Below are positions 9,800-11,591 of a stretch of DNA of 64,000 nucleotides, one piece after another (within the stretch, counting starts at the first letter, position 1; every line of letters starts with the position of its first letter). The stretch is from Thalassospira sp. TSL5-1 (GTDB lineage Bacteria > Pseudomonadota > Alphaproteobacteria > Rhodospirillales > Thalassospiraceae). The notes beneath the pieces were generated by a model that saw nothing but the letters and a program-made list of their open reading frames with translations, searched no databases and was not told the DNA's origin. The position numbers and the translations under genes are program-made. The stretch covers positions 1 to 64,000 of the forward strand of contig NZ_KV880641.1 in NCBI RefSeq assembly GCF_001907695.1. The letters are read 5' to 3'.

Positions 9800-11002
9800 T
9801 TATACGTTCAATGCCGCAAACAGATCTTCTTTCAGATCATCAATATCTTCAAGCCCGACAGAAAGGCGCAACATCCCTTCGGTAATGCCCATCGTAATTT
9901 TGTCTTCAGCCGGAACACGCTGATGCGTCGTGGTCCAGGGATGGGTGGCGAGGCTTTTGGCATCGCCAAGATTGTTTGAAATATCAATCAGTTGCAAATT
10001 ATCCAACAGCGAAAACGCCGCCTGTTTCCCGCCCGCCAGTTCCAGCGCGATTAACCCGCCACCGCGGCCTGACATCTGTTTCATGGCCAGTTCATGCTGC
10101 GGATGGCTGGCAAGCCCCGGATAAATCACCTTGGAAATCTGCGGCTGTTCGGACAGGAAATTCGCCAGTTCTGTTGCATTTCGGATATGTGCATCGACAC
10201 GCAGGCTCAGGGTTTCAAGGCCCTTAAGCAAGGTCCAGGCGTTAAAGGGGCTCATGCTGGGCCCGGTATGACGCAGGAACTGGGTTAGATGATTATCGTG
10301 CCAGTCCTTGTCATTAAACAGGATCGCCCCACCCAGGCACCGGCCCTGGCCATCGATATGCTTGGTCGCCGAATAGACAACCACATCCGCCCCCAATTCA
10401 AACGGATGCTGCAAAATCGGTGTCGCAAAAACGTTATCAACCACCACCTTGGCACCAGCCTTGTGGGCCAGTTCGGCCACAAAGGCAATGTCGATCACTT
10501 CAAGGGTCGGGTTGGACGGGGTTTCAAGGAAAACAGCGTCAGCAGGCTTGGACAGCGCCTTTTCCCACGCGGCATGGTCGGTGCCATCCACCAGTTCGGT
10601 TTCAACGCCAAAGCGCGGCAACAGGGTGGTGAGAATAAACTCGCAGGACCCGAACAGTGCGCGTGAGCCAACAACACGACCGCCCGCCTTGGTACAGGCG
10701 GCCAGCGCATTCCAGACCGCTGACATGCCCGATGCGGTTGCGCGGCAATGTTCTGCACCTTCCAGCAGGGCAAGGCGTTCTTCAAACATGGCAACGGTGG
10801 GGTTGGCAAAACGCGAATAGACAAAACGTTCCGGCCCGCTGCCATCAAACGAGGCTTCAGCCTCGGCAGCACTGTCATAGACATAGCCGGAATTCATAAA
10901 AATGGCTTCGGAAGTTTCGTTAAAACCGCTGCGTTTGGTGCCACCACGAACAGAACGGGTGGCAGCGCGCCATGTGTCGGAAGCCTTTTTTTCGGTCGTC
11001 AT
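9800..11002 (-). CDS. metZ: O-succinylhomoserine sulfhydrylase
   Basis: A 400-residue PLP enzyme of the Cys/Met metabolism family, expected to make homocysteine from O-succinylhomoserine and sulfide in methionine synthesis. The PLP lysine is in YSATKHIDGQGR near residue 207, and the N-terminal TRSVRGGTKRSGFNETSEAIFMNSGYVYD segment is typical of MetZ. I place the start at the ATG at 11002, which has AGGAGC eight bases upstream; the frame is open to 11065, but that extension runs through a terminator hairpin. Expression is probably controlled by the SAM-II riboswitch upstream, which supports the methionine role over a MetB-like or methionine lyase function. Confidence 0.92.
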   Translation of the reverse strand: MTTEKKASDTWRAATRSVRGGTKRSGFNETSEAIFMNSGYVYDSAAEAEASFDGSGPERFVYSRFANPTVAMFEERLALLEGAEHCRATASGMSAVWNALAACTKAGGRVVGSRALFGSCEFILTTLLPRFGVETELVDGTDHAAWEKALSKPADAVFLETPSNPTLEVIDIAFVAELAHKAGAKVVVDNVFATPILQHPFELGADVVVYSATKHIDGQGRCLGGAILFNDKDWHDNHLTQFLRHTGPSMSPFNAWTLLKGLETLSLRVDAHIRNATELANFLSEQPQISKVIYPGLASHPQHELAMKQMSGRGGGLIALELAGGKQAAFSLLDNLQLIDISNNLGDAKSLATHPWTTTHQRVPAEDKITMGITEGMLRLSVGLEDIDDLKEDLFAALNV

Positions 11003-11043
11003 CGTCTTGCTCCTGTGCCCGGCTGTGTTGCGCAAACCGGGCA

Positions 11044-11077
11044 TAAAAAAACCCGACCGGCACATGATCAGGTCAGG
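11044..11077 (-). terminator. intrinsic terminator in the metZ leader (attenuator)
   Basis: Minus strand: CCTGACC (11077-11071), 12-base loop, GGTCGGG (11058-11052), then seven Ts (11051-11045). It lies between the SAM-II aptamer and the metZ start, so it would abort transcription before metZ. One G-T pair in a 7-bp stem; strength moderate. Confidence 0.7.
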
Positions 11078-11090
11078 GGGGCGATGCCAT
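11073..11090 (-). CDS. five-codon leader ORF between riboswitch and metZ
   Basis: ATG GCA TCG CCC CCC TGA, encoding Met-Ala-Ser-Pro-Pro. It starts five bases after AGAGGACAGG, a good ribosome site that is also the 3' edge of the SAM-II aptamer, and its stop codon lies inside the left arm of the metZ leader terminator. Whether it is translated is unknown; the placement is what makes it credible. It is too short for any product function and would act only through ribosome position. Confidence 0.4.
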   Translation of the reverse strand: MASPP

Positions 11091-11094
11091 CCTG

Positions 11095-11150
11095 TCCTCT
11101 TTAGCGGTTTTTAACGTGGCCGCAAGCCGGTCAACAAATCCCACGCGAAG
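11095..11150 (-). promoter_or_regulatory. SAM-II riboswitch (metA/metZ type)
   Basis: Minus strand reads like the SAM-II consensus: CGTGG (11145-11141), GATTTG, ACCGGCTTGCGG, CCACG (11119-11115) closing P1, GTTAAAAACCGCTAAAG forming the pseudoknot strand, and then the purine-rich AGAGGA. SAM-II aptamers occur before methionine genes in Alphaproteobacteria, matching metZ here. In known cases ligand binding hides the adjacent ribosome site; here that site belongs to a five-codon ORF and a terminator follows. Confidence 0.92.
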
Positions 11151-11160
11151 GGAGACTACG

Positions 11161-11591
11161 CCCGACACTTACCAACGTCAAGACATCGGCAGGCGGAAAA
11201 CCGCCCCCAAACGCCGCTTTTTACCTAACCGTATTTTTTTACACGATATTTTTATCAGCCTGACAATCGCCACAAGAGGTACCGAAACAACCGGCCAATA
11301 TACGATACCCTATAGCCCCGCCCCAACAAAACCGCAGGTTTTCTTCACGCAATGGTGAAAGCAGTTCATGTGTCAAAGTGCAAATAAGGCTCTATTGTCA
11401 GAAAGATACATGAGATGTTTTGGGCCTCCGGTTTGAAAGCGCCATGCGATCACATGACGACATACCGAAAACTTCTTCGGTCTGCCCGTCTGTCCCAAAA
11501 CACCAAAGAGAGCAACAAAACCCGCGACACAGAACGAAACCCAAAGCCTGTTTTGAACGTTTCAGTACCAGGAACCCCAAAGAGCGACTTG
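11161..11591. other. divergent intergenic region upstream of metZ leader and TVP38 gene
   Basis: About 430 bases without a supported gene. It must hold the metZ promoter (reading left) and the promoter of the TVP38-like gene (reading right). The frame of the latter remains open from 11415, but that part is rich in charged and polar residues without family resemblance. A small GGCGG-AAAA-CCGCC hairpin lies at 11192-11205. Confidence 0.4.

Follow-up and report, generated by a model that had tools for sequence, protein, structure and literature searches.

The leader of metZ in Thalassospira sp. TSL5-1 is probably a SAM-II riboswitch acting as a transcriptional OFF switch of the gene, with termination predicted to depend on SAM. 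It lies on the minus strand of the window, the stretch of 64,000 nucleotides that was analysed. An aptamer, an intrinsic terminator conserved in relatives and a separate ribosome site of metZ can be read there, and from this arrangement we infer the steps of switching. When SAM is bound, the pseudoknot P2 would sequester the strand GCUAAAGAGG and the left arm of the terminator would stay free; RNA polymerase would then halt at seven Us, giving an RNA of about 100 nt. When SAM is scarce, the end of the GCUAAAGAGG strand and the following CAGG would pair with the CCUGACC of the terminator arm to form an antiterminator. Transcription would extend into metZ, which would be translated from its own Shine-Dalgarno (SD) sequence.

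Transcriptional control of this kind needs no new mechanism, since alphaproteobacterial SAM-II elements usually come with a terminator and SAM-dependent termination has been reported upstream of metZ in S. meliloti. Indeed, in the available parts of two studies, SAM-II is described as most often terminator-associated in alphaproteobacteria (PMC2258182) and many members as carrying terminators (PMC1273637). This runs against the premise of the initial annotation that SAM-II usually hides the ribosome site of the methionine gene itself. For S. meliloti metZ, the available part of PMC9373788 reports that SAM raises an RNA of ~100 nt and lowers metZ mRNA, and that a terminator is predicted upon SAM binding. 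This attenuator (sRNA RZ) shares aptamer class, gene and terminator position with the window, where a terminated RNA of the same size is expected. That part of the study reports no mini-ORF for metZ, and the Thalassospira version of the shared strand has been shortened and resembles an SD.

Architecture of the metZ leader

The leader matches the Rfam SAM_alpha/SAM-II model (RF00521) at positions 11154-11080 of the minus strand with 51.6 bits and an E-value of 1.1e-8, the gathering score being 36. By this match to a model of sequence and structure, it can be classed as SAM-II; binding of SAM is predicted. The match and a re-reading of the letters confirmed where the initial annotation had placed the aptamer, the ribosome site at its end, the ATG at 11090, the stop codon, the hairpin, the seven Ts and the ATG of metZ (Table 1). 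We take metZ to encode O-succinylhomoserine sulfhydrylase. The promoter is regarded as putative because the consensus promoter scan does not list TTGACG/TAGTCT in its output.

Table 1. Positions of the leader elements and of metZ, in the numbering of the window
Feature	Position	Strand	Remarks
Predicted promoter, TTGACG - 17 nt - TAGTCT	11153..11181	-	putative; recognised by eye; directly upstream of the aptamer
SAM-II aptamer core	11096..11145	-	RF00521 match
Aptamer P1 arms	11145-11141 with 11119-11115	-	coordinates read from the sequence
Pseudoknot P2 3' strand, GCTAAAGAGG	11105-11096	-	includes SD-like GAGG
Mini-ORF, ATGGCATCGCCCCCCTGA	11073..11090	-	Met-Ala-Ser-Pro-Pro-stop; ATG 11090; read directly
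Predicted antiterminator	11071..11098	-	nascent-RNA fold
Intrinsic terminator	11045..11077	-	left arm CCUGACC or GACCUGAUC; right arm GGUCGGG 11058-11052; seven Ts 11051-11045
metZ Shine-Dalgarno, AGGAG	11010..11014	-	conserved in the leaders compared
metZ	9800..11002	-	ORF; ATG 11002; protein start MTTEKK

The elements of the leader overlap closely. The 3' strand of P2 serves also as the SD-like site. In the predicted antiterminator (-13.0 kcal/mol in the nascent-RNA fold), AGGACAGG (11098-11091) is paired to CCUGACC(U), from 11077, and encloses a small stem, GGC-AUC-GCC, at 11088-11080. The terminator hairpin can form in two registers, with either CCUGACC (11077-11071) or GACCUGAUC (11074-11066) as the left arm against GGUCGGG(UU), and both left arms share nucleotides with the stop codon of the mini-ORF (11075-11073). 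A terminator scan places the hairpin at 11074-11050, and lists 7 sites in 2 kb as compared to 2.8 expected in shuffles. Folding energy discriminates little, with z-scores against shuffles of -0.90 for the whole leader and -1.08 for the terminator stretch. A further hairpin, GCCCGG...CCGGGC, occupies 11042-11017, downstream of the terminator and ahead of the metZ SD; arms like these are found across the genus, with some paired changes seen by eye.

Conservation of the terminator and of the strand-arm pairing

We searched 29 genomes of the genus Thalassospira, and all 29 carried the aptamer. At the level of the order, 127 of 149 genomes had a SAM-II match. In the part of PMC4239095 available, SAM_alpha was found only in Rhizobiales and Rhodobacterales among the genomes surveyed; its spread in Rhodospirillales therefore exceeds that described there. 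The order loci are the listed matches; G106 and G100 (score same as that of G112, presumed near-copies), two partial matches and one at a contig end are omitted. They comprise 141 loci (L001-L141), in five of which the aptamer was unparsed (L110, L119, L121, L122 and L131). The aptamer precedes metZ in 118 of the 136 parsed loci, the other 18 having no metZ match. These 118 metZ leaders consist of 29 in the genus and 89 outside it, and 16 of them have no terminator under the rule used. The terminator is found in 29/29 leaders of the genus and, among the listed matches, in 73/89 outside it, in agreement with the initial proposal that a SAM-II aptamer feeds an intrinsic terminator before metZ. 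A predicted terminator between aptamer and gene is thus kept in relatives, as an attenuator would require.

Across the order, GGUC is the prevailing sequence of the aptamer strand and GACC that of both the aptamer loop and the terminator arm, so that the strand is able to pair with either. We followed these pairs in register through the terminator-bearing leaders; 15 of the 102 could not be registered, and 58 outside the genus and 29 within it were retained. The search patterns fix most outer pairs, which leaves three pairs as free tests, the third between strand and arm and the first two between loop and strand. Of the 58 leaders outside the genus, 58 and 56 have standard pairs at the two free loop-strand positions and 47 at the free strand-arm position. 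Within the genus, the corresponding counts are 11 and 0 of the 29, and 0, so that both the P2 and the antiterminator helices are without the same pair (0/29 each). The P2 3' strand at 11105-11096, and the same strand in L003-L030, has shifted genus-wide from GGUC to GGGG, GGGU or GGAC.

Predicted nascent folds were compared with those of shuffled spacers. For the listed matches of the order outside the genus, 64 of 73 folds show pairing between arm nucleotides and the P2 strand (50.4 expected), at -12.5 kcal/mol versus -9.6 in shuffles. In the genus, this pairing occurs in 21 of 29 folds as compared to 19.9 expected, and the genus as a whole is not above shuffles. In the window clade, AGG-A-CAGG pairs with CCUG-A-CCU; for its six members, including L003, which carries no ATG, the fraction of shuffled spacers folding as well is 0.01-0.06. 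For the other 23 leaders of the genus, the antiterminator fold is not above that of shuffled spacers. In these models, ordinary antitermination outside the genus is well supported, and the direct antiterminator, made of aptamer strand and terminator arm, appears widespread in the order, shortened in the genus and partly rebuilt in the window clade. Pairing of a strand with its own rather than a foreign arm gave a weak signal outside the genus (mean rank 0.443 with 0.5 expected by chance, 46/73 below 0.5). When 12 nt of the aptamer strand were shuffled, the median fraction for complementarity was 0.365 in the genus and 0.130 outside, in a test that is blunt for G-rich strands. The case presents a probable SAM-II attenuator with a shortened pseudoknot/antiterminator strand, and bears on how much erosion an attenuator can tolerate.

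Distribution of the mini-ORF and of its start codon

The initial annotation had linked SAM to the terminator through the mini-ORF. With little SAM, the GAGG would be free, and a ribosome initiating at 11090 would slow at Pro-Pro-stop and cover the terminator arm, causing readthrough; with SAM, the ORF would stay closed and the terminator would form. Translation termination at Pro-Pro-stop would probably be slow. We consider this reading quite unlikely from the way in which the mini-ORF is distributed among relatives. Taken alone, the mini-ORF is only mildly unlikely to occur by chance. When the 22 nt after the SD were shuffled 20000 times, an ATG 4-10 nt off with an in-frame stop before the hairpin end arose in 2.4% of cases, and in 6.4% when ATG, GTG and TTG starts were allowed.

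The exact mini-ORF is present in 5 of the 29 Thalassospira genomes (L001 and L004-L007). In L003, the closest relative of these five, AAG stands in place of the ATG while the stop is retained; in the remaining 23 leaders, the frame continues beyond the stop position. On the metZ tree, L003 and the five mini-ORF rows form a six-row fork with support 100/99, and the five alone a group with support 80/94. The codon at the start site is ATG in 15 leaders, GTG in 6, TTG in 2, CTG in 1, AAG in 4 and ACG in 1. Hence, 23/29 have ATG, GTG or TTG and 6/29 have none of the three; five of these six contain no ATG, GTG, TTG, CTG or ATT 2-15 nt past the SD, and the sixth has CTG. The tree calls for 5 changes between start and no start, 4 of them forced by firm branches; shuffled labels need 5.6, and 152 of 500 shuffles are as low. 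Counted by column across the 29 rows, there are 5 changes at the T of NTG and 3 at the first letter of that codon; the four preceding linker columns show 4, 4, 7 and 5 changes and the adjacent GGC 0. As the T varies like the linker and the GGC is unchanged, the constraint lies on the hairpin and terminator arm and not on the start codon.

The frame of the site codon relative to metZ is 0, 1 or 2 depending on the leader. In 9/29 leaders (GTG 6, ATG 2, CTG 1), it runs in frame into metZ and is stop-free over the 600 nt examined, as if the codon after the aptamer SD were a second start of a longer MetZ and the terminator lay inside the coding region. This is highly improbable: the frame differs among close relatives, in the window a TGA ends it after five codons, and metZ is equipped with an SD and ATG of its own.

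Comparison with spacer shuffles gives some support to the ribosome-based link within the genus, where 15/29 leaders have ATG at the site (3.1 expected) and 5/29 combine it with a hairpin stop (1.4 expected); near-copies inflate both counts, and all five of the latter belong to one clade. With ATG, GTG and TTG as starts, hairpin stops are no more frequent than chance would give (5/29 versus 5.9 expected). For the listed matches of the order outside the genus, 68 leaders were counted, as 5 of the 73 without the SD pattern were dropped. Of these, 3/68 have ATG at the site (6.6 expected) and 0/68 combine it with a hairpin stop (1.1 expected). Allowing ATG, GTG and TTG, a start is found at the site in 19/68 (24.5 expected) and a stop in the hairpin in 3 (5.5 expected). 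A sample of the class, unfiltered for metZ or terminator, led from 60 places to 30 loci, 28 parsed aptamers and 26 leaders with an SD core; its L164 duplicates L090. ATG stands at the site in 4 of these 26 leaders, and none of the frames so opened is closed ahead of the T-run. From the order and class leaders counted, we reject the idea that SAM-II leaders commonly carry mini-ORFs, the counts of the order being below expectation. A conserved leader peptide is likewise ruled out, since start, frame, length and stop are all variable.

Overall, the joint conservation of ATG, stop and terminator that the initial annotation had proposed to look for in relatives is borne out for the terminator hairpin and not for the ATG or the stop; a mini-ORF lacking in close relatives is among the outcomes that this annotation had named as refuting. 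A ribosome-mediated attenuator requires conservation of the start of its leader ORF, and the aligned leaders show none. Neither does a stop or stall codon appear fixed relative to the terminator, as 23/29 leaders read past it and L003 has a stop without the ATG. The mini-ORF is real and confined to one small clade, where it is sited in a variable linker and in the antiterminator arm; it is probably incidental.

Folding barriers, known systems and other SAM-II loci

For each of the six window-clade members, the fold of lowest energy contains a terminator both with a free and with a blocked P2 strand; therefore, the switch must be kinetic. In L001, L005, L006 and L007, this fold places the terminator on the second CCUGA of CCUGACCUGAUC, where it coexists with the inner hairpin. 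The computed, approximate barrier from antiterminator to terminator is 3.0 kcal/mol in these four leaders, 4.6 in L004 and 8.2 in L003. Elsewhere, the barrier averages 8.9 for the remaining 23 Thalassospira leaders and 8.3 for the 73 leaders from outside the genus among the listed matches, where it ranges from 0 to 13.6. Within the clade, the direct antiterminator thus seems weakest in the five mini-ORF species, which represents one evolutionary event judged from approximate energies.

These low barriers in the five carriers, as compared to the ATG-less L003, fit the ribosome-based link. So does a ribosome modelled at the mini-ORF stop (blocked to +28, an assumed footprint), which removes the terminator and leaves -2.5 kcal/mol in L001. 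However, with a ribosome modelled as initiating at the ATG (blocked to +16, also assumed), the terminator remains, at -11.1 in L001. Moreover, among the other 23 leaders of the genus, the barrier is unrelated to the start codon (mean 7.5 without start, 9.3 with start, p 0.62), and two start-less leaders have barriers of 3.9, which is evidence against ribosome assistance. We also considered that, in the five-species clade only, the tandem CCUGACCUGAUC moved the terminator beyond the ancestral antiterminator, and that an SD-recruited ribosome at Pro-Pro-stop became a SAM-controlled antiterminator. We give this a small chance. If true, SD occlusion would have been converted into control of an intrinsic terminator inside one genus, and the riboswitch of that clade would have exchanged direct for ribosome-mediated antitermination as its output; related species could then serve as natural controls.

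The persistence of the terminator in the lowest-energy folds would also suit a terminator that, in the clade, is largely SAM-independent and only lowers output, SAM acting via another route, for instance RNA stability or 30S access to the aptamer SD, as has been proposed for S. meliloti metA. The leader of that gene is a precedent: in the available part of PMC9373788, its terminator is not predicted to be SAM-responsive and the riboswitch SD is needed for translation 74 nt downstream. We nevertheless regard this as rather unlikely for the window, as metZ has its own conserved AGGAG, the S. meliloti leader that acts as attenuator in the same source is that of metZ and not of metA, and the antiterminator-like fold of the clade exceeds shuffles. 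The OFF-switch reading that we favour is supported by the behaviour of S. meliloti metZ RNA, the conserved terminator, the order-wide strand-arm pairing, the clade folds above shuffles and a start codon that varies like the linker beside an unchanging hairpin. It is weakened by the shared pair lost in the genus, genus pairing at shuffle level, the terminator in every lowest-energy fold of the clade, the low barriers and the weak own/foreign rank.

The metA leader resembles that of the window in its order of SD in the aptamer, AUG1 right after it, terminator and real start (PMC9373788, available part). In metA, AUG1 shares the reading frame of the gene and is dispensable in the leader context: its change to UAG keeps reporter expression, whereas a change of the SD abolishes it. 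In the window, the first frame stops after five codons, and the AGGAG of metZ is separate. The independence of metA from AUG1 speaks against a role of the mini-ORF start.

Riboswitches governing a small ORF that affects downstream genes, as in the model of the initial annotation, are described in mycobacteria for the B12 riboswitch of ppe2 (PMC11260477) and the Mbox of pe20 (PMC12810186). In the available parts of these papers, they are reinitiation- or Rho-linked and, unlike the window, involve no intrinsic terminator. As such riboswitch-controlled small upstream ORFs are published, the general idea is already in print; the literature searched on SAM-II, uORFs and Thalassospira riboswitches contained no report of a SAM-II mini-ORF attenuator. 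The ribosome-mediated attenuator uORFC-8-2 before cysS (PMC8632094, available part) places a short ORF beside an intrinsic terminator in alphaproteobacteria, as in the window. Its AUG and Cys codons are conserved, whereas in Thalassospira neither start nor sensing codon is.

The genome that holds the window has a second SAM-II-like match, under the cut-off at 35.2 bits (L002 1501-1578; G000:C1:1001624-1001701, plus strand). It lies upstream of an ABC-transporter gene, presumably metN-like, and the aptamer is again followed by a hairpin and Ts. In four of the five metN-like leaders examined (L002, L031, L139 and L140), ATGTACGACCGCCTCGG precedes the hairpin; the fifth, L141, which shares its genome with L003, is without the ATG of ATGTACGACCGCCTCGG. 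At class level, frames of 442 and 414 codons begin with an ATG 9-10 nt past the aptamer SD in L163 and L170, where a protein may possibly be initiated at the riboswitch.
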